The translations under genes were made by a program, and so were the position numbers. From Nitrosopumilus zosterae (lineage in GTDB: Archaea; Thermoproteota; Nitrososphaeria; Nitrososphaerales; Nitrosopumilaceae), in the NCBI RefSeq assembly GCF_025998175.1, contig NZ_AP026695.1, positions 558,001 through 622,000 of the forward strand: DNA of 64,000 nucleotides, given 5' to 3'. The notes under the pieces were generated by a model, which saw nothing but the letters and a program-made list of their open reading frames with translations, ran no database searches and was not told the DNA's origin. Shown in pieces: positions 20,997-39,319 of this stretch (position 1 is its first letter; every line of letters begins with the position of its first letter).

Positions 20997-21092
20997 GAGT
21001 GTTATTCTCAAAATCAGTAGAAAAAGTCAAGGTAATAACAGTATAATGGCAAAACCTAAAGACAAAAAAACTCGTCTTTTAGTAGATTCGTT

Positions 21093-21186
21093 GGACCGGT
21101 CGTCTAGTTTGGTTTGGATGACGCACTCACACTGCGTAAGGAATTTTTTCCCGCAAAGGTCGTGGGTTCAAATCCCATCCGGTCCA
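21093..21186 (+). tRNA. tRNA-Val (anticodon CAC) with a non-canonical intron
   Basis: Acceptor stem GGACCGG (21093-21099) pairs perfectly with CCGGTCC (21179-21185), discriminator A at 21186. The anticodon stem ACGCA/TGCGT closes the loop CTCACAC, anticodon CAC at 21128-21130, reading GTG valine codons. T arm GTGGG-TTCAAAT-CCCAT. The variable region as written is 19 bases too long and holds an intron (21139-21157). After removal the variable loop is AGGTC and the tRNA is 75 bases, as expected with a 10-base D loop. No CCA is encoded. The 3' end is the attachment site of the integrated element. Confidence 0.93.
21139..21157 (+). other. tRNA intron in the variable loop (bulge-helix-bulge)
   Basis: Central helix TGCG (21133-21136) with CGCA (21152-21155), 3-base bulges TAA (21137-21139) and AAG (21156-21158), inner stem GGAA/TTCC with a TTTT loop. 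Cutting after the second base of each bulge removes 19 bases and leaves a normal 5-base variable loop. The site is between tRNA positions 44 and 45, not the canonical 37/38. The outer helix is weak (two base pairs). Processing would need the archaeal splicing endonuclease. Confidence 0.82.
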
Positions 21187-21188
21187 TT
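21172..21188 (+). other. attL core
   Basis: ATCCCATCCGGTCCATT, covering the end of the T arm, the 3' acceptor strand, the discriminator and two bases beyond the tRNA. Identical to 39303-39319. Because the whole 3' end is recreated, the tRNA gene stays intact. Confidence 0.85.
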
Positions 21189-21233: not shown

Positions 21234-22418
21234 ATGGAAATTACCCTAGAAAAGATCAACACCAGAAGCGATCCCTACCAATTGTTTTTAGACTCAGTAA
21301 AAAATAAGGAAACTGTTAGACGATACAGAAACTTACTCTACACGTTTCTCAAACTAATTCCAAATCAGATTTACCATGATGTATTAGGAGAAGTACCTCC
21401 AGATAGAGAAAAAGAAACACTTGCAAAATATTTTGTAGATGTTGCAAGAAAAGATTCTGAGATTGCTGCAAATATTATTGCAGCATACATCAAAGAAGAC
21501 AAAAAAAGAATAGAATCTGGTGAAATTAGTCCCCAAACCATCCCAAATCATATCAAGCCAATCAAGGTTTTACTTGATTCTAATCGCATTGCAATTCACT
21601 GGAAATCTCTTACAAAACTATACCCTAGAATCACAAGAGGATCAAATGACAGAGCATACACACGAGAAGAAATACAAAAAATGCTCGAGGTTTCAAAAGA
21701 CATTACAGATAAAGTGATTATCCTGATGTACTCCTCAGGAGGATTCAGACTCGAAGCGTGGGATTACTTTACTTGGAAGGATTTGGTCTTTTTCAAAAAT
21801 AATGATGGAAGTTACAAAGGTGCAGCATTGATTGTTTATAGAAATGATCCGGAACAATACTGGACATTTATCACGCCAGAGTCATGTAAAGCCCTGGAAA
21901 TTTATCGTGAGAAATGGAAATCAGAGATTGGGCAATATCCAAAACCAGAGGAACCATTAATCAGGACAGTAAAATTCCCCATGATTCGCAGACTCAATCA
22001 AAAAGGAGTAAGAAAAAGAGTAGAAAAAGTAGTTAGAGAGATAGGCCTTAGACCACCATTGCCTCCAGGAAAAAGAAGACATGAGGTAAAACTTGATCAT
22101 GGTTTTAGAAAATTCTTTAACACAAATCTACGACGTGCCAAAGTTGATTTTTTGGACAAAGAGGACATGATGGGTCACAAAATAGGTCTAGAAAGACATT
22201 ATGAGAGATATCAGGAAGAAGATTTTGAACGATTCCCAGAATATGAAAAAGCCATTCCTTTTCTAACCATATCTGATGAGGAAAGAGCCAAACTAGAAAA
22301 CATAAAGTTAAGACAAGAGAAATCTGAACTGGAAAAGAAGAATGCAGAGCTAGAAGCTATAAAGGTAAAATTAGACGAACTTTGGGCAGACAAGCAACGC
22401 ATGGAAAATAACAATTAA
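21234..22418 (+). CDS. Tyrosine-recombinase integrase
   Basis: 394 residues. N-terminal SAM-like/core-binding region (NKETVRRYRNLLYTFLKLI), then the catalytic domain: first Arg in SSGGFRLEAWDYF, HGFR (the HxxR motif), a late His in MMGHKIGLERHYERY, and the nucleophile Tyr most likely in that same HYERY segment. The last 50 residues form a charged coiled coil (KLRQEKSELEKKNAELE). It starts 46 bases after the attL core and points into the element. Catalyses integration and excision at tRNA-Val. Confidence 0.92.
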   Translation: MEITLEKINTRSDPYQLFLDSVKNKETVRRYRNLLYTFLKLIPNQIYHDVLGEVPPDREKETLAKYFVDVARKDSEIAANIIAAYIKEDKKRIESGEISPQTIPNHIKPIKVLLDSNRIAIHWKSLTKLYPRITRGSNDRAYTREEIQKMLEVSKDITDKVIILMYSSGGFRLEAWDYFTWKDLVFFKNNDGSYKGAALIVYRNDPEQYWTFITPESCKALEIYREKWKSEIGQYPKPEEPLIRTVKFPMIRRLNQKGVRKRVEKVVREIGLRPPLPPGKRRHEVKLDHGFRKFFNTNLRRAKVDFLDKEDMMGHKIGLERHYERYQEEDFERFPEYEKAIPFLTISDEERAKLENIKLRQEKSELEKKNAELEAIKVKLDELWADKQRMENNN

Positions 22419-23896: not shown

Positions 23897-25093
23897 TTGG
23901 TGGATTTACATGTTAATCCTGAACTGTTTGCACTAGTTCCTGAACCAACAAAAGAAGATTTTGCTGCACTGAAAAAATCAATAGAGGCTAACGGACAACA
24001 CAATCCAATTATTGTTTGGAAAGATCCTGTTTCAAGTAAAGATTTCATAATTGATGGTCATTCACGCTATGAAACTTGTAAACAATTAAAGATAGAACCA
24101 ATAATAGAATACAAACAATTTGATAACTGGCTTGTTGCTATGAAATTTGCAGTTCAAGTAAATAGCAACAGACGACATCTTAGTGCTATTCAAAAAGTGG
24201 AGCTTGCTTTACGAGAGATTGAAATTGAAGGAAAAATTGCTAAAGAACGTCAAAAATCCACTCTTCCCAAGAAAGGCGAGAAAGGATTTCAAAAATCTGT
24301 GCCAAATGGCATGCACACTGGAAATACCTGTGAGATAGTATCTAAAAAAACAGGTCTAAGTTCACGAACTGTTGCACGATTGAAGCGAATATTAGATGAT
24401 GGGACAGATGAACTAAAACGTGATGTTGCTTCTGGTAAAAAGACTGCAGCATCTGCTGAACGCCTAATAAAATTAGAACAAATTCATACAAACCCCATAT
24501 CTTTGCCTGAGGGTAAATTCAAAATAATATTGTGTGATGTGCCTTACAAATATGATTTTGAGGGAGAAGGAGCACCAAACTATCCTACTCTGTCAGAAGA
24601 AGAAATTATCAAACTCAAAGACCAACACGGCAGACCCATAACTGACTTGTTTGCAACTGATGCAATAATCTTCTTCTGGGCACCATTTCCTAAGCTAGAA
24701 GACGCATTACGCATAATTCATGCCTGGGGATTTTCTTACAAAACGGGCATAGTCTGGTCCAAAGAAAAAGAAGGCATTTCACAGCAAGGAACAGGCCATT
24801 ATGTTGTTGCGACTTGTGAGACAATACTCATTGCAACCAAAGGAAAACCAGGTATACCTCTACCAAAAAACAGACCTCTCGGAATACTTAGGGCACCAAG
24901 AACTAACACCCATTCTCAAAAACCAGACATTACAAGACATTGGATTGAAAAGATGTACCCTAATGAAAAATATCTAGAGTTGTTTGCAAGAGAAACTGCA
25001 AAAGGATGGACTGCCTGGGGCAATCAACTGGATTTCCCAAAAATAACCAAACCAGTTATCAAAAAAGGAATTTTGGATTATCTTGAAAGATAA
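23897..25093 (+). CDS. ParB domain fused to an MT-A70-like DNA methyltransferase
   Basis: 398 residues from a TTG. Residues about 1-105 are a ParB/Srx-fold domain: VNPELFALVPEPTKEDF, then IIDGHSRYETCKQL. Residues about 125-200 hold a KorB-like HTH (SKKTGLSSRTVARLKRI). From 210 to the end is an MT-A70 fold (ILCDVPYKYDFEG, FWAPFPKLEDALRII, LELFARETAKGWTAWGNQ). MT-A70 enzymes make N6-methyladenine with a DPPW motif; here the motif reads DVPY near residue 214, so activity is uncertain. The sister gene at 31683 has canonical DPPW. Similar fusions occur in phage and plasmid genomes, where ParB-like domains may help target DNA. Confidence 0.85.
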   Translation: MVDLHVNPELFALVPEPTKEDFAALKKSIEANGQHNPIIVWKDPVSSKDFIIDGHSRYETCKQLKIEPIIEYKQFDNWLVAMKFAVQVNSNRRHLSAIQKVELALREIEIEGKIAKERQKSTLPKKGEKGFQKSVPNGMHTGNTCEIVSKKTGLSSRTVARLKRILDDGTDELKRDVASGKKTAASAERLIKLEQIHTNPISLPEGKFKIILCDVPYKYDFEGEGAPNYPTLSEEEIIKLKDQHGRPITDLFATDAIIFFWAPFPKLEDALRIIHAWGFSYKTGIVWSKEKEGISQQGTGHYVVATCETILIATKGKPGIPLPKNRPLGILRAPRTNTHSQKPDITRHWIEKMYPNEKYLELFARETAKGWTAWGNQLDFPKITKPVIKKGILDYLER

Positions 25094-26297: not shown

Positions 26298-27293
26298 TTA
26301 TTTAAAAAACTTCTTTAATTCTTTATAAAGATCAGTTAATGTTTTCTTTGATTCAGGATTTTCAAATATTTTTTTTCTTTCAAATTTGTTTAATTTATTC
26401 ATGCTTTTTGAAACACTTGGAATTTTTTTAATCCAAGGCAATTTGCTTAAATAATTTTTTTCAGTGAATTCTAGAAATGCATCATCCACAGTCATTCTTG
26501 CGTCGTTTAGAAATTTTTTCAAAATAGCATCATCTTCTACAATTTTTCCAAAAGTTCTTAATCCTCCTTTTAATGAAACACTTGGAATTCTTGTTATACC
26601 ATTTTTATTTGGCGTAATTAACTCAAAATAATTTTTTCTTGAAACTGGAGATTTAAAAAATTTTTGTTTTATTGTTCCTGGTGCATCTTTGAAAAAAGAA
26701 TATTTCTTAGGGTCTACTTCATAATCTCCTTTTTTCTTACCATATTCAATAAATTCTAGATAAAATTTGAAATTATCTATTTCGTTGTCTATATAACTTC
26801 GTGATTTTCCTAACATGCTTGCAATGTCCTCAATACTTATCTTATTTTTCCAGAATAAATTGTAGATATGAGCTGCTTCATTAAATGCACCCCATGGAGT
26901 TTTACCTGTTTGTAAAATTGCCTTTTGAACTTCAAGATCAACTTGACTTGTACTATTTGGAACAACATGAGCACGTACTGATTTGTAGTTTATTCCACCA
27001 GATGACGGAATTTTTTTCTTAATTAATTCACGTAAAACGGTTACTCTCATATTTCCTTCAATCACCTGATAGGATCCATTTGCTAAATCATAAACCCAAA
27101 TAGGATCAATTACACCATATTCATGAATGGAATCGAAAAGTCTGTTAAAAACTGGAGAATCTTGAATCTCTTCCATCATGTTTTCCTGAGTCCAGTTTTT
27201 AATACCACGTTCAATTTTTGAAAATCTTAATCTTGGGTTCTCATCATCTAACTGAATAGCTTCTACAGGAATTTCTTTTAGAATTGATTTCAT
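26298..27293 (-). CDS. ParB-fold protein, paralogue 1
   Basis: 331 residues. ParB/Srx motifs in the first 100 residues: IQLDDENPRLRF, YGVIDPIWVYD and IEGNMRVTVLREL. It aligns along its whole length with the divergent neighbour at 27366 (LITPNKNGITRIPSVSLKGGL against LITPNKHGETRIRSVSLKGGL; ILQTGKTPWGAFNEA against ILQTGKKKWGPFNEA). A second region near residue 165 (IEDIASMLGKSRSYIDNEI) resembles an HTH. ParB-fold proteins can be DNA-binding NTPases or nucleases. It lies opposite a nuclease-helicase operon, and the two paralogues share a 72-base intergenic region. Confidence 0.82.
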   Translation of the reverse strand: MKSILKEIPVEAIQLDDENPRLRFSKIERGIKNWTQENMMEEIQDSPVFNRLFDSIHEYGVIDPIWVYDLANGSYQVIEGNMRVTVLRELIKKKIPSSGGINYKSVRAHVVPNSTSQVDLEVQKAILQTGKTPWGAFNEAAHIYNLFWKNKISIEDIASMLGKSRSYIDNEIDNFKFYLEFIEYGKKKGDYEVDPKKYSFFKDAPGTIKQKFFKSPVSRKNYFELITPNKNGITRIPSVSLKGGLRTFGKIVEDDAILKKFLNDARMTVDDAFLEFTEKNYLSKLPWIKKIPSVSKSMNKLNKFERKKIFENPESKKTLTDLYKELKKFFK

Positions 27294-27365
27294 ATTGTGA
27301 TTCTATGAATCTCTTAATTAAGATTTGATGGGGATTCTTAAATAATCATAATTTTATGAATATTT

Positions 27366-28391
27366 ATGGTAAAGAAAACATCTGAAGATTATTTTGAAAA
27401 AACTATTCCAATCAAAGACATTACATTGGATCTAGAAAACCCTAGGTATCATGAAAAATTAATTCAAACGGGAAAAAAGAAGTGGACAGATGAAATGCTT
27501 CAGGAAATTATTGAGGATGAAGATATTTCAGATATTTTGCCATCGATTAAAGCTTCAGGTGTACGTGAGCCAATATGGATATTTGAAAAAGGTAATGGCA
27601 AGTATGAAGTACTTGAGGGCAGTAGAAGATTAGTTGTGCTAAGAGGATTAGTAAGGGATAAAGTTGATCCGCCTAATAGCAATATCTCATATGACAAGGT
27701 CAAATGTCATATTTATCCAAAAAATACGGATCCTAGATTCATAGATGCTCAGAGAGTGATTCTACAAACAGGTAAGAAAAAATGGGGGCCATTTAATGAG
27801 GCCTCGGCAATTTACAAGCTTGTTCACACAGATCGTTATACAACTGAGGAAGTAGCAAAAATGATGCGAAGTTCAGTAGGTTCAGTAAATAAGGAATTGG
27901 AGAACTATAAACACTATGTCGATTTCACCAAATTTATCAAAAAAGATAAAGTGCAAGGAATAGAAGATCCTAGAAAATATTTGTATTTTCAAAGAGCTAG
28001 TGCATATGTTAGAGACAGATTCTTTGGAACTTTAAAAGAAAAAGAAAAATTCTTTAAATTAATTACGCCAAATAAACATGGTGAAACAAGAATTCGTTCT
28101 GTATCATTAAAAGGAGGTTTGTATGATTTTAATAAATTTGCACAAAATGAAATTATTCTACAAAAATTCTTAAAAAATGATCGAATGACAATTGAAGATG
28201 CACTAGATGAATATCATGGTACGTCCATTAATGATTTGATGCCTTGGATCAAAAAATTAAAAGATGTGGCTAAAGGAATTAACAATATAGATGACGATGA
28301 TCTTGAAAAACTCAAAAAAGAAACCGCCATTATGAATCAAATTAAACGAGTCTACTTGGGTTCTAAATCCATTATTGAATCTACAAAATGA
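27366..28391 (+). CDS. ParB-fold protein, paralogue 2
   Basis: 341 residues. Motifs ITLDLENPRYHE, SGVREPIWIFE and LEGSRRLVVLRGLV give the ParB fold. Paralogue of 26298. It starts a three-gene operon, with the nuclease start inside its last codons (17-base overlap) and the helicase overlapping the nuclease. The HTH-like region at about 150-175 is TTEEVAKMMRSSVGSVNKEL. Role inferred as the recognition or regulatory part of the nuclease-helicase module. Confidence 0.83.
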   Translation: MVKKTSEDYFEKTIPIKDITLDLENPRYHEKLIQTGKKKWTDEMLQEIIEDEDISDILPSIKASGVREPIWIFEKGNGKYEVLEGSRRLVVLRGLVRDKVDPPNSNISYDKVKCHIYPKNTDPRFIDAQRVILQTGKKKWGPFNEASAIYKLVHTDRYTTEEVAKMMRSSVGSVNKELENYKHYVDFTKFIKKDKVQGIEDPRKYLYFQRASAYVRDRFFGTLKEKEKFFKLITPNKHGETRIRSVSLKGGLYDFNKFAQNEIILQKFLKNDRMTIEDALDEYHGTSINDLMPWIKKLKDVAKGINNIDDDDLEKLKKETAIMNQIKRVYLGSKSIIESTK

Positions 28392-29229
28392 ATTGGAACT
28401 CAAAACTTTTGTGTCAAAAATTCTTTCAGACGAAGATGTAGATCATAAATTACGTAAATACCAAAAAGTTTTACTTTCACTTGAGGATGTGAACAAAAAA
28501 GGAAAATCCATAATCGTATCAAAATATGAAGAATTTGTCACTCAGCTTCAAAAACAATTGCAAATCAAACCTCTTTTGATAAAAGCTGATTGGAAAAATG
28601 AAGAAAAAGAAGAGGTCATGTTTGCTATGAAATATCATAAATTTAGAGAAGAATTTGAGATAGTAGTTATGCCAACATGGTCTGAAATTGGCATAGTTTC
28701 AAAATTGTACAATGAGTATCTTAATGAACAAATTAATGATAAAATCAAAAACTTGACTCAGCCACAATCAGTGGTATTAATTGAAAATGTACTAAGTGAT
28801 TCAAAAATAGAGTGGATCAAAGATTTTAGATTAAATCCAAAAGCCTCAGATGATGAAGGTACTGATTTTACAGCTGTGCTATACATAGATAGAGATGGTT
28901 CAATCTCTCATGATGAATTTGGAAAATGGGTTGAAATTGTTGGTCAGTTAAAGCATCTAAAGGGCGAAATGGGTCCAAGTGATATGCGTGATTTCATAGG
29001 AACCATAAAGACTTCCAAGAAAAAGCATGGTATGGTAATTAGCACTAACGGATTTACCAAAAGAACTATTGATGCAGTTGACTCTTCAAAATTCACAATT
29101 TTCTGTTATGATTCAAATTTCATTACAGATCTAATCATAAAACATAAAATTGGAATGAAAGAATATCGAATTAAAGCAGGTTTAATTCCTGATGATGAAT
29201 GGTGGGATGAAATTAGAATCTTTTCTTAG
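28375..29229 (+). CDS. Mrr-like restriction endonuclease
   Basis: 284 residues from a TTG (28375, or the one at 28393). Residues about 155-240 carry the PD-(D/E)xK pattern of Mrr nucleases: DEGTDFTAVLYIDRDG with the catalytic Asp, then WVEIVGQLKHLKGEMG giving the QxK motif, and HGMVISTNGFTKRTIDAV, which matches the Mrr segment after the core. The N-terminal 130 residues are helical and unassigned. Coupled to a ParB-fold gene upstream and a SNF2-like helicase downstream, as in restriction systems that pair a nuclease with a translocase. Confidence 0.78.
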   Translation: MNLQNELELKTFVSKILSDEDVDHKLRKYQKVLLSLEDVNKKGKSIIVSKYEEFVTQLQKQLQIKPLLIKADWKNEEKEEVMFAMKYHKFREEFEIVVMPTWSEIGIVSKLYNEYLNEQINDKIKNLTQPQSVVLIENVLSDSKIEWIKDFRLNPKASDDEGTDFTAVLYIDRDGSISHDEFGKWVEIVGQLKHLKGEMGPSDMRDFIGTIKTSKKKHGMVISTNGFTKRTIDAVDSSKFTIFCYDSNFITDLIIKHKIGMKEYRIKAGLIPDDEWWDEIRIFS

Positions 29230-30817
29230 GCCAGCCCCATATCAATTGGTTCCTTTAATGAAATTACTACATAACAACCTAAATGGAATTCTTATTAGTG
29301 ATGGGGTGGGTGTTGGAAAAACAATTTCAGCTGGTTACATACTTTTATTTCTTATTTCTAAACTTAATCAATCAGGTATTGTTGTATGTCCTCCATCTTT
29401 ACTGATAAAATGGAAAGAAGAACTTGAATCAAAATTTGATCTTAAGGGAATTGTTGTCACTAATATTGAAGAACTTGCCACAATGGAAAATGAACTTCAA
29501 ACTATCAGAAGTAAAAAAAGACCCACAGTCTACATTATGCCTTCGTCCATTTTGAATAAAATTAAGTTTGGCGAGAAAACTCAAGTAAGCGTGATTGTTT
29601 TTGATGAGATACATAATTTTAGAAATGATGAAACACTTGGATATAGAAATGCCAGAAAGATTTCTTTACATGCAGAATATCGAGTTGGACTAAGTGCAAC
29701 ACCAATCAATAACTCGATTGATGATTTTATCTCCGAATTAAGCATTTTATTCCCATTTAATAGCAGAGAAGCAGTTTCAATTCTAATTGATGATCTCTGG
29801 GATCAAAATAAATCAATGATAACTAATTCATTAGTAACACGATTTACAAAAGAACATCTTGGTATTCACTTTGCAAAAAGAATTGTCAAAACAGCCGAAA
29901 TAGAGTATCCACAAGAATATATCAGAAAAATCAAAAACATCATCTCAAAAATTCCGACAACAAGAGACTCTTTTTTTGAAAAAGTCACATATTATAGATT
30001 GGCCGCAAGTAGTTCTCAAGCATTTAGTAAATCTGTTGGAATTAAAGAAGAATTGATTGAACAAGATCCAAAAATTTCTGCTGCAAGTAAAATTATGGAT
30101 GAAATAAAGAATGAAAAATGGGTGATTTTTTGCGAATTTTCTGAAACCGTTAATGCAATTGAAAAAGAGTTTGTTAATAGATGGACTACTTTTGTAATGA
30201 CTGGAGAAACACCTCTCTTAGAAAGGCAAAAAATTATCAATAATTTTCGAGAATCAGAAAAATCGATTCTAATTATGACACCCGTGGGATCTGAGGGATT
30301 AGATGTTCAGTTTTGTAGTGCTGTAATGAATTATGATTTGCATTGGAATCCAATGCGGATGGAACAAAGAATTGGAAGAATTGATAGAGTTGGTCAAGAA
30401 AAAGACAAGATCTATATTGTAAATTTACTTGTAAATGGTAGTATAGATTTGAGAATTTTGCAAGTCATTGAGGAAAAATTATCTCTGATTTCAAACTCCA
30501 TCTTTGAACTTTCTTCACTAATTAAACAAAAATCAGATAAAGTAATTGAAATTTTTGATAAAAGATCATTTGATAGTGAATTTGAAATAAGTAAAAAATT
30601 CTTGCAATCATTGAAATACTGGGAATCTTTTCCGTTAGAAGATTATTCAATCATCCCTAAAATCAATATTGAATTGTGTAATGCTGAAAAATTATTGAAA
30701 AGTTCCAAACAAGAACATGTGAACTGGTTTAAAAATAATAAAGAATATACTAAATGGAAAAATGATTTTATAAAAAAATCAAAACCAATTCAAGAAAGAA
30801 TTAATCTATATTCATGA
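29207..30817 (+). CDS. SNF2/RapA-like superfamily 2 helicase
   Basis: 536 residues from the ATG at 29207 (MKLESFLRPAPYQL), 23 bases before the nuclease stop; another ATG at 29192 would add five residues. Walker A DGVGVGKTISAGY, DEIH box VIVFDEIHNF, GLSATPINN (motif III), and the C-terminal lobe GSEGLDVQFCSAVMNYDLHW with MEQRIGRIDRVGQ (motifs V and VI) are typical of RapA/SNF2 translocases. It moves along double-stranded DNA using ATP rather than unwinding it. Last gene of the operon; it overlaps the convergent 30812 gene by six bases. Confidence 0.92.
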   Translation: MKLESFLRPAPYQLVPLMKLLHNNLNGILISDGVGVGKTISAGYILLFLISKLNQSGIVVCPPSLLIKWKEELESKFDLKGIVVTNIEELATMENELQTIRSKKRPTVYIMPSSILNKIKFGEKTQVSVIVFDEIHNFRNDETLGYRNARKISLHAEYRVGLSATPINNSIDDFISELSILFPFNSREAVSILIDDLWDQNKSMITNSLVTRFTKEHLGIHFAKRIVKTAEIEYPQEYIRKIKNIISKIPTTRDSFFEKVTYYRLAASSSQAFSKSVGIKEELIEQDPKISAASKIMDEIKNEKWVIFCEFSETVNAIEKEFVNRWTTFVMTGETPLLERQKIINNFRESEKSILIMTPVGSEGLDVQFCSAVMNYDLHWNPMRMEQRIGRIDRVGQEKDKIYIVNLLVNGSIDLRILQVIEEKLSLISNSIFELSSLIKQKSDKVIEIFDKRSFDSEFEISKKFLQSLKYWESFPLEDYSIIPKINIELCNAEKLLKSSKQEHVNWFKNNKEYTKWKNDFIKKSKPIQERINLYS

Positions 30818-31564
30818 TGGAAGATTAAGCTCATTAAACATATTGAAGAGAATTTTATGGATTTCGCTATGTTCGGATTGAGATAATCTATAATCAAACC
30901 AGAAATATTGTGTATAGCATAATGCAGTAAGATTGTGTATACTTTGAGATGATTTTAATCCATCCAAGAATTTTTTGTTATATGTATCTCTACCAATTTT
31001 TAATTTATTTGCAAATTCTTTGTATTTGTAATTACTAAAAATAGAATATTTTCTGGCAACATACAATGATAGTAGGATGTACAGGTATTGTGGACTAACA
31101 TCTCTTCGAAAATCATTATTTTCATCAAAAATCATAGGCAATATTTTATGCCTAAATTTGGACTCTTTTTTAAAAAATATTAAATTATAACGTAAAATCT
31201 CTCTAAATCGTAAAAATTCCCCTAGTCTTTCTTTATCTTTACGATTTGTAGATTGAAAAATTTCTTTGATGTCTTCTTTAATTATTTTATCTTTGTGTGG
31301 TAAAAATAATGCAGATTCTGTAGTAAGATGTCCTTGTAAAAAATTGAATAATTCAGTCCACTTCGGATTTTGTGATCTATTTTCTGCTTGACGTTGATTA
31401 AGATACCTTTGAATTTCTTTTTTCCATGTAGAACCAGCAGTGTTAATTGCAGTTTGATTTCCTCGTTTTCCCAATAAATGAGGAATAAAATTTTTATCAA
31501 AAGAATAAAATATTTCGTCTTTAAACTCAAACTTGAATTTTTTTAAATGAAAAATTCCTAACAT
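30812..31564 (-). CDS. Unknown basic protein in the defence-like module
   Basis: 250 residues, basic, no membrane segment. The N-terminus is hydrophobic and aromatic (MLGIFHLKKFKFEFKDEIFY); the middle is rich in Arg/Lys (NQRQAENRSQNPKW; QSTNRKDKERLGEFLRF); the C-terminal third is helical and rich in Tyr and Phe. No motif recognised. It converges on the helicase and diverges from the MT-A70 gene at 31683. Position suggests it is part of the module, as a regulator or an additional specificity protein; the sequence does not show which. Confidence 0.7.
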   Translation of the reverse strand: MLGIFHLKKFKFEFKDEIFYSFDKNFIPHLLGKRGNQTAINTAGSTWKKEIQRYLNQRQAENRSQNPKWTELFNFLQGHLTTESALFLPHKDKIIKEDIKEIFQSTNRKDKERLGEFLRFREILRYNLIFFKKESKFRHKILPMIFDENNDFRRDVSPQYLYILLSLYVARKYSIFSNYKYKEFANKLKIGRDTYNKKFLDGLKSSQSIHNLTALCYTQYFWFDYRLSQSEHSEIHKILFNMFNELNLPS

Positions 31565-31682
31565 GCAATTTTTATTAAAAATAAGAGCATTTATGGTTTT
31601 AAATTTATCCAGATCGCTATTTTTTGAGAAATTGTAGAAATTACCATGCTCTAATATATTATGAATTTTAATTCAAAATTAT

Positions 31683-32363
31683 ATGACACAGGAGATAACC
31701 GAAAAACCAACGGGTTATTCTATTTACAAAAAAACTGTCAAAAAGCGTACCATACGTAGTCATTTACCAGAAGAAAAATTTTATCCAGCATTACCAAAAA
31801 CCAAATTTGATATAATTTATGCAGACCCACCTTGGGATTATAATGGAAAATTACAATTTGATAAAAGCAGCAAAGATAAAGAAAATCTCGACACATCAAA
31901 AAATCTATTCATAAGTACTTCGGGATTCAAGTATCCAACTTTAAAAACAGAAAAAATGAAAGAGATCCCTATTCAAAAAATTGCAAAAGATGATTCTTTA
32001 TTATTTATGTGGACTACAAATCCTCATTTAGCACAATCCATTGAATTAGGAAAAGCATGGGGTTTTGAGTATAGAACTGTTGCTTTTATTTGGGATAAAA
32101 TGGTGCATAACCCTGGCAAATACACACTTTCTAATTGTGAGTTATGTCTTGTATTCAAACATGGCAGAATCCCAACACCTAGAGGTGCCAGAAACATTCG
32201 TCAACTAATCAGAGTGCCAAGAGGAAAACATAGTGAGAAACCCAAAGAAGTCATGGTAGCAATTGAGGCAATGTTTCCACATCACAAACGAATTGAATTA
32301 TTTGCACGGGAAAAAGTAAAAGGATGGAGTAATTGGGGATTGCATTTGGATCATTGGGGATAA
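31683..32363 (+). CDS. MT-A70 family N6-adenine DNA methyltransferase
   Basis: 226 residues. The catalytic DPPW motif is intact in IIYADPPWDYNGK at about residue 50. Other conserved segments: LLFMWTTNPHLAQSIEL, YRTVAFIWDKM and RIELFAREKVKGWSNWG at the C-terminus. Expected to methylate adenine at N6 in DNA. Only three bases separate its stop from the HARE-HTH gene, so they are one operon. In this context it may protect host DNA from the Mrr-like nuclease; that is inference. Confidence 0.9.
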   Translation: MTQEITEKPTGYSIYKKTVKKRTIRSHLPEEKFYPALPKTKFDIIYADPPWDYNGKLQFDKSSKDKENLDTSKNLFISTSGFKYPTLKTEKMKEIPIQKIAKDDSLLFMWTTNPHLAQSIELGKAWGFEYRTVAFIWDKMVHNPGKYTLSNCELCLVFKHGRIPTPRGARNIRQLIRVPRGKHSEKPKEVMVAIEAMFPHHKRIELFAREKVKGWSNWGLHLDHWG

Positions 32364-32366
32364 TTT

Positions 32367-32615
32367 ATGAAAAAATCTAAAAATCTAAAAATTGTTGGTG
32401 TGAGAATGAGTGATGCAAATGATTCTATTCACGGTATCGTTGTACGTATTTTGAAACAATCTGGTAAACCTATGAGGGTTAAAGACATAACAGAAAAAGT
32501 ATTAAAAATTAAAAAAATTCATAGTAAAACTCCCATGAATTCTGTTGTCAATAAATTACAAACATCAAAACATGTTATTCGTATCGGACACGGATTATAT
32601 TCATATAAAGAATAA
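32367..32615 (+). CDS. HARE-HTH-like small DNA-binding protein
   Basis: 82 residues. Residues about 25-80 resemble the HARE-HTH (HB1/ASXL) winged-helix domain: IVVRILKQSGKPMRVKDIT, VNKLQTSKHVIRIGHGLYSY. This domain is known from restriction-modification proteins and from chromatin proteins such as ASXL, where a role in sensing DNA modification was proposed. The N-terminal 20 residues are basic. Encoded directly behind the MT-A70 methylase, supporting a link to DNA methylation. Confidence 0.7.
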   Translation: MKKSKNLKIVGVRMSDANDSIHGIVVRILKQSGKPMRVKDITEKVLKIKKIHSKTPMNSVVNKLQTSKHVIRIGHGLYSYKE

Positions 32616-37197: not shown

Positions 37198-38376
37198 ATG
37201 GATGAATTCAAAATTTATACATCCGATATAAGCCGATATCTGTTCTATATTACACATATTGATAACATTCCTTCTATGCTCCAAAATGGAATTCTTTCTC
37301 ATAATCTAATTGAACAAGAAAATCTTGATTATACTCCAATTTATGACAGAGAAATTGTTTCTAACAGAAAAGAAAAAATGGTTAATGGAAAAAGTCTCTG
37401 GCATTTTGCTAATTTGTATTTCCAGCCTAGAAATCCCATGTTATATCGTGTAACCATGGAAAAATCGCCTGACGTTATAGCTGTAGTTGCTGTAGACAAA
37501 AAAATCCTGGATACCTCCAATGCATTTATCACAGATGGAAATGCGGCTAGTGAACCTACAAAATTCTATCCAAACACTAATTTCAAAATTATCGAAAAAC
37601 AAATTAGCAGGATAACTGATTTACAATGGTGGACAGAAAGTAATGCAACTAAAAGACAAATCATGGCAGAATGTTTAGTACCCGAAAGGATCCCTCCAGA
37701 ATTTATTAGAGCGATTTATGTCAGTAATCATGAACTTGCAGATAAAATACGACAATCAGTGTCTTCTAGTGTTTCTGTAATTCCAGAACCTTCAATGTTT
37801 TTCCAACCTGTAAGAAAAATACCACTTACCAATAATCTTTCATTGGTGGAAGGGGATTTGTTTTTTTCAAAAATGCAAACGCTTACTGTAAGTGTAAATT
37901 GTATTGGAATTATGGGAAAAGGTCTGGCTTCTAGAGCCAAATATCAATTCCCTGATGTTTATGTTTACTATCAAGATCAATGTAAAAGAAAAACACTTCG
38001 AATGGGAAAACCTGTATTATATCAACGTGAAGGTCCATATCATCAACAAATTGCAGATGATCCAAGTTCTTTAGGGAATAGAACAGATACGTGGTTTTTA
38101 CTTTTTGCAACAAAACAGCATTGGCGTGATAATAGTGACATTAATGGAATCGAGAAGGGATTACAATGGCTTCTAGACAATTATGAAAGAGTAGGAATTA
38201 AATCTCTTGCAATTCCTGCTTTGGGTTGTGGTTTAGGACGATTACGCTGGGAAGATGTGGGACCAATTCTTTGTAAATATTTGTCTAAAATGGACATACC
38301 AGTTTGGGTGTATTTGCCAGCAGAAAAACAACTTTCAAATGACTTACTCACAAAAGAATTCTTACTAGATGATTAG
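37198..38376 (+). CDS. DarT-DarG fusion: DNA ADP-ribosyltransferase and macro-domain glycohydrolase
   Basis: 392 residues with two domains. Residues 1-200 are DarT-like (DUF4433): FYITHIDNIPSMLQNGILSH, LYFQPRNPMLYRV, and KRQIMAECLVPERIP, in which Glu158 matches the catalytic Glu of the DarT motif. DarT adds ADP-ribose to bases in single-stranded DNA. Residues about 213-385 are a macro domain: LVEGDLFFSKMQTLTVSVNC, IGIMGKGLASRAKYQFPDVY and LAIPALGCGLGRLRWEDVG, as in DarG, which removes the mark. They are normally two adjacent genes of a toxin-antitoxin and phage-defence system; here one chain carries both. No frameshift separates them. Confidence 0.9.
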   Translation: MDEFKIYTSDISRYLFYITHIDNIPSMLQNGILSHNLIEQENLDYTPIYDREIVSNRKEKMVNGKSLWHFANLYFQPRNPMLYRVTMEKSPDVIAVVAVDKKILDTSNAFITDGNAASEPTKFYPNTNFKIIEKQISRITDLQWWTESNATKRQIMAECLVPERIPPEFIRAIYVSNHELADKIRQSVSSSVSVIPEPSMFFQPVRKIPLTNNLSLVEGDLFFSKMQTLTVSVNCIGIMGKGLASRAKYQFPDVYVYYQDQCKRKTLRMGKPVLYQREGPYHQQIADDPSSLGNRTDTWFLLFATKQHWRDNSDINGIEKGLQWLLDNYERVGIKSLAIPALGCGLGRLRWEDVGPILCKYLSKMDIPVWVYLPAEKQLSNDLLTKEFLLDD

Positions 38377-39302: not shown

Positions 39303-39319
39303 ATCCCATCCGGTCCATT
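39303..39319 (+). other. attR core
   Basis: ATCCCATCCGGTCCATT, identical to 21172-21188; the bases on either side differ. Marks the right end of the integrated element. Confidence 0.83.

Follow-up and report, generated by a model that had tools for sequence, protein, structure and literature searches.

Genes and features of the locus

The window, the whole stretch of 64,000 nucleotides analysed here, belongs to a complete genome of 1.775 Mb, by gene content and published work probably that of a marine, Nitrosopumilus-like ammonia-oxidizing archaeon, and carries an integrated element of 18.1 kb. The element is recognized by 17-bp att repeats of the tRNA-Val 3′ end and by the tyrosine integrase gene that comes immediately behind the tRNA. 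The original prediction of an island-borne module is thereby confirmed—with boundaries that it did not give. It also lacked two further features of the element: a third ParB-fold protein, fused to a degenerate MT-A70 domain, and a DarT toxin fused with a DarG macrodomain in one gene. With these and a PIN gene, the element carries further defence-like genes in addition to the module. It is uncertain whether the ParB–MT-A70 fusion belongs to the module. In the window fusion the DPPW motif reads DVPY; a fusion resembling it occurs in genome G090 (locus L098). The four core genes have a G+C content of 0.29–0.32, the MT-A70 gene has 0.342, and the genome on either side has about 0.35.

Table 1. Features of the integrated element and of its ParB–nuclease–helicase module (window positions)
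Feature	Position	Strand	Basis or remark
tRNA-Val(CAC), integration target	21092..21187	+	ARAGORN
attL, 17-bp repeat ATCCCATCCGGTCCATT	21172..21188		exact copy at 39303-39319
Tyrosine integrase of the element	21234..22418	+	NCBIfam XerA-like 1.4e-8; adjoins tRNA-Val
ParB–MT-A70 fusion, degenerate DVPY	23897..25093	+	PF05063 1e-18; parB_part 2e-8
ParB1, ParB-CTPase-fold with HTH	26298..27293	-	PF02195 3e-6; 40% identity to ParB2
Palindrome GATTCTATGAATC, candidate ParB operator	27299..27311		ParB1/ParB2 divergent promoter
ParB2, ParB-CTPase-fold with HTH, first gene of operon	27366..28391	+	AF2 pLDDT 80.7; Foldseek
Mrr-like nuclease, N-terminal part without assignment	28375..29229	+	PF04471 1.5e-7; GTD...GQLK
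SNF2/RapA/DrmD-like translocase	29192..30817	+	PF00176 1e-18; PF00271 3e-22; DrmD 209 bits vs 610
Orphan basic, helix-rich protein	30812..31564	-	no convincing family match
MT-A70 adenine methyltransferase, candidate modifier	31683..32363	+	PF05063 8e-21; DPPW intact
HARE-HTH/winged-helix protein, 82 aa	32367..32615	+	PF05066 1e-6
Fused DarT-DarG, neighbour of the module rather than part	37198..38376	+	DarT 1e-48; DarG 1e-45
attR, 17-bp repeat	39303..39319		copy of attL

All seven genes named in the original prediction lie where it placed them, the domains it gave are borne out by Pfam matches, and the arrangement it described holds throughout. The two ParB-fold genes are homologous over 299 residues (E 2e-80) and run divergently with 72 bp between them. 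ParB2 leads a coupled operon: its gene overlaps that of Mrr by 17 nt, which in turn overlaps the SNF2 gene by 38 nt. The gene on the opposite strand encodes a basic protein of pI 9.7, and 3 bases separate the MT-A70 gene from the HARE-HTH gene behind it. The Mrr-like protein starts at a TTG codon, later starts being possible, and its intact catalytic motif marks it as a putative restriction-type nuclease. Walker A and DExH motifs are present in SNF2. The intact DPPW motif identifies MT-A70 as a methylase, for which DNA is the probable substrate. The orphan basic gene has no relatives in 130 genomes and no convincing Pfam or PADLOC family.

The ParB fold is a nucleotide-gated DNA clamp, better known from chromosome segregation. 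Proteins with the ParB-CTPase fold bind NTPs and are often fused to methylases (PMC12704722). The ParB_N Pfam match of ParB2 (4.5e-4) falls under the curated cut-off. Structural comparison supports the predicted ParB fold: the AF2 model of ParB2, based on 15 aligned sequences, finds ParB, Noc, and KorB as best PDB matches by Foldseek (E about 1e-6). The modelled fold and its HTH are those expected of a ParB-CTPase of ParABS systems; among the module genes, searched with Pfam and NCBIfam, there is no ParA. Across 18 ParB relatives, E84, G85, R88, W140, and A146 are invariant in addition to M1, and N25 and R27 nearly so. The family conserves EGxxR and NPR, and features GKxxW where ENxxR is expected. 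EGxxR is probably the counterpart of the ParB nucleotide motif, with ENxxR replaced by GKxxW; because of this replacement, CTP switching or nucleotide use by the window ParBs is not to be assumed. The candidate operator palindrome is the sole copy in the 1.78-Mb genome. The N-terminal part of the PADLOC candidate PDC-M38A (a model of 715 positions) matches this ParB family, the ParB of locus L067 at 4.9e-42.

Related loci in archaea and bacteria

The seven-gene set was sought in 150 relatives from the genus and order of the window genome, in 398 members of the phylum Thermoproteota, and in 201 members of the class of genome G296, and no further copy turned up. The conserved neighbourhood by which the original prediction could be judged is hence seen in part: the full set is in no other searched genome, whereas neighbourhoods of ParB with a nuclease and of ParB with a methylase recur. 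ParB lies directly beside Mrr in two further archaeal families, followed in L067 by a convergent N6/N4 methylase and in L091 by DGQHR and radical SAM genes and PbeA/PbeC. In L097, ParB precedes a 131-aa gene, whose nuclease identity could not be demonstrated, and a D12 methylase. L052 features an AAA ATPase and an OLD-like TOPRIM gene, then ParB, then an N6/N4 methylase, and in two genomes (L066 and L054) ParB adjoins RusA. Of the seven archaeal ParB loci, four have a methylase within 5 kb, where about 0.02 would be expected for each locus (P about 9e-6; P = 0.004 with methylases 5-fold enriched in islands and 0.05 with 10-fold enrichment)—a small sample of seven genomes in which three methylase families were counted, with loci picked by ParB similarity regardless of their neighbours and with only partial correction for the clustering of methylases in islands. 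ParB2 of the window found no match in phages and plasmids, and none was confirmed for ParB2 alone in viral contigs.

Further arrangements of similar parts occur in these archaea. In L091 (8249-17307), ParB-Mrr, DGQHR, and radical SAM genes directly adjoin PbeA and PbeC. Two loci of the same genus as the window contain DndC, DndE, and neighbours with ParB-like and SNF2 genes (L051, 92-11939) and a row of an SNF2 gene, a 585-aa gene without assignment, and an Mrr-like gene (L053, 5755-9967). SNF2 homology alone was dropped as evidence: 146 of the 150 relatives have helicase matches.

A scan of genome contigs yielded one locus, L059, placed by its tree in Myxococcota. This locus opened a bacterial branch of Rhizobium, Mesorhizobium, Roseomonas, and Bradyrhizobium plasmids and of viral contigs; the hosts are Rhizobiales, Roseomonas, and a myxobacterial MAG in addition to the viral contigs. 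As judged by custom profiles, 13 non-redundant bacterial or viral loci have at least two ParBs, SNF2, radical SAM, and GHKL genes (L059, L070-L075, L099-L101, L103, L105, and L108); a small nuclease gene is recognized in most of them and a DGQHR gene in some. Their layout is ParB-A, PD-(D/E)XK, SNF2, ParB-B, (DGQHR), radical SAM, and GHKL ATPase (L059, 5957-12910). The small gene is assigned to the PD-(D/E)XK nucleases by motif, its PD...EAKT residues being conserved. The radical SAM enzyme may make a novel DNA modification. In the viral contig L112 (7254-10623), 58 bp separate a PD-Lambda-5_A-like ParB gene from a radical SAM gene that lies behind it and belongs to this same family, which suggests that the radical SAM enzyme can stand in for a methylase. 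The MT-A70 gene in the viral contig L101 was considered as a second case and rejected because its neighbours look like phage genes. No matching PADLOC system and no name were found for the bacterial ParB–SNF2–radical SAM locus.

Like the window, the bacterial loci combine two ParBs, in most cases a restriction-type nuclease, and an adjacent SNF2, with a putative modification module beside them. They differ in having separate ParB duplications, another SNF2 subfamily, the small PD-(D/E)XK nuclease for Mrr, and radical SAM for MT-A70. The two window ParBs share one clade of the ParB tree with the L052 protein (100/100); bacterial ParB-A and ParB-B form two others (each 100/100). The window SNF2 groups with other archaeal loci (91/95) and the bacterial SNF2 proteins stand apart (97/99), with best scores to DrmD for the former and to ZorD/DpdE for the latter. 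The trees thus do not support a common origin for the two-ParB sets of archaea and bacteria. Since they show that the ParB duplications, like the SNF2 genes, arose separately, convergent assembly from like parts is more likely than common descent of the set—a claim held at moderate strength because the branches are long.

Comparison with known defence systems

As the original prediction had supposed, no named system of PADLOC, Pfam, or NCBIfam corresponds to the gene set, and no description was found in the searched open literature. That the seven-gene set is unnamed in these sources is not proof of novelty, and it may have been named earlier.

PD-lambda-5, a tested anti-phage system (Vassallo 2022, PMC9519451), is the nearest tested precedent. 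Its PADLOC models comprise a ParB-domain protein (A) and a D12 methylase (B). Both ParBs of the window align with PD-Lambda-5_A in its N-terminal ParB portion (5e-9 and 4e-8), and the D12 methylase of L097 matches PD-Lambda-5_B. However, most PD-Lambda-5_A profiles span about 430-610 residues, of which the N-terminal ~100 are matched, and the window ParBs have 331 and 341 aa. PD-lambda-5 also needs D12, in whose place the window has MT-A70—the D12 match of this genome lies elsewhere—and the window features separate Mrr and SNF2 genes.

The window SNF2 is nearest to the DrmD/RapA-type translocases of DISARM, but its DrmD score of 209.4 bits is below the curated cut-off of 610. Among the matches listed for the module proteins there is no DrmB, DrmC, or DISARM methylase, and the one DrmA match is the SNF2 helicase itself. 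The phosphorothioation systems Dnd and Pbe and the Dpd system share with the window a ParB-superfamily protein, SF2/SNF2 helicases, and a modification arm: DndB and DpdB are ParB-superfamily proteins in Dnd and Dpd systems with such helicases (PMC10853773), and in L091 ParB-Mrr stands beside PbeA/PbeC. The matches listed for the module proteins, however, include neither DndC, DndD, DndE, PbeC, and PbeD, which have counterparts in L051 and L091, nor DpdA (TGT) and DpdB; only the helicase resembles DpdE, and MT-A70 occupies the place of the Dnd, Pbe, or Dpd modification gene. Zorya unites SNF2 and Mrr-like activities in ZorD. Both activities occur together in the window, but in separate genes, and neither ZorA nor ZorB is among the PADLOC matches listed for the module proteins. 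The comparison with the MADS defence system covers the PADLOC matches of L052 only.

Function of the module

The module is tentatively read as a modification-gated restriction system on a mobile element with the ParBs as site readers, a reading given a little less than an even chance. MT-A70 would methylate adenines of host DNA and set an m6A mark. ParB1 and ParB2, probably as a heterodimer, would load at defined DNA sites via HTH and nucleotide-binding fold, and would tell unmethylated from methylated sites or load on unmodified DNA only. The loaded ParB would recruit SNF2 as translocase and Mrr as nuclease, and these two would travel along and cut the invader DNA. In addition, ParB may bind its own divergent promoter and so balance the expression of both arms, and the HARE-HTH protein may regulate or sense modification. 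We infer in this way a role in defence as such, ParB as reader, MT-A70 as cognate modifier, and modification-dependent cleavage.

The original prediction held that the methylase marks host DNA and that ParB, nuclease, and helicase attack what is unmarked. Restriction linked to modification is the best-supported reading because ParB–nuclease and ParB–methylase neighbourhoods recur in archaea and bacteria. It is further favoured by the single overlapping operon of ParB2, Mrr, and SNF2, by the ParBs beside Mrr, RusA, and methylases in relatives, by the 13 bacterial loci, by the PD-lambda-5 precedent, and by DarT-DarG on the same element. The repeated partners of ParB are a nuclease and a modification enzyme, both exchangeable, which fits ParB as a reader linking modification state to attack. 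Against it stands the occurrence of the seven-gene set in one genome only. The membership of MT-A70 and HARE-HTH did not hold up equally: they form a separate transcription unit, with the oppositely oriented orphan gene between them and the operon. Position and the trend in relatives suggest that MT-A70 pairs with the operon. The HARE-HTH protein as a modification sensor is possible, though not established for adenine methylation, cytosine marks being more likely sensed (PMC11037411).

Because of this separation and of its higher G+C (0.342 vs 0.29-0.32), MT-A70 may be an unrelated orphan methylase. ParB1, ParB2, Mrr, and SNF2 alone would then act as a type IV-like defence against modified or structured incoming DNA, with MT-A70/HARE-HTH as an unrelated orphan unit; this is rather unlikely. 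Mrr-type nucleases often cut modified DNA, the window Mrr matches PADLOC mREase_IV (2e-6), and MT-A70 has its own transcription unit. A second MT-A70, fused to ParB, is already on the element, such fusions are enriched in archaea (PMC12704722), and the RusA-linked ParBs have no nearby methylase. The methylases near more than half of the archaeal ParB loci, in three families, speak against it, as do several other loci in which a radical SAM gene, putatively for modification, takes the place of the methylase.

It is improbable that the ParB pair serves partition or transcription control of the element, with Mrr and SNF2 in replication or maintenance. ParB-like partition genes do occur in thaumarchaeal conjugative elements (PMC6563490), and the divergent promoter holds the candidate operator, but the inspected module genes lack ParA and the ParBs of L052, L067, L091, and L097 sit with nucleases, methylases, or the OLD-like ATPase/TOPRIM pair and without partition genes. 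Slightly less probable still are ParBs that, in the manner of Osa, GmrS, or RK2 ParB, act themselves as effectors by cutting DNA or degrading nucleotides, with Mrr as a regulator or backup: nuclease and NTPase activities have been reported for ParB/Srx proteins (PMC4619093, PMC12839542), whereas the canonical HTH, the ParB-like layout, and the nuclease partners beside many family members suggest a targeting role.

On a wider scale, it is possible, if somewhat doubtful, that a class of modification-gated defence has gone unrecognized in which ParB-fold proteins serve as the swappable reader. Its two-ParB/SNF2 version would have assembled independently in archaea and bacteria, and the window would be the m6A version. 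The same ParB family would then be combined with MT-A70, N6/N4, D12, or radical SAM enzymes as modifiers and with Mrr plus SNF2, small PD-(D/E)XK plus SNF2, RusA, or OLD-like ATPase/TOPRIM as effectors. If true, the ParB fold would also be a general recognition element in immunity and would explain self/non-self discrimination across loci whose modification enzymes differ. The finding would further point to a radical-SAM-linked bacterial relative, perhaps installing a novel DNA modification, and would provide a testable defence system for the Thaumarchaeota, which are abundant and hard to manipulate genetically.
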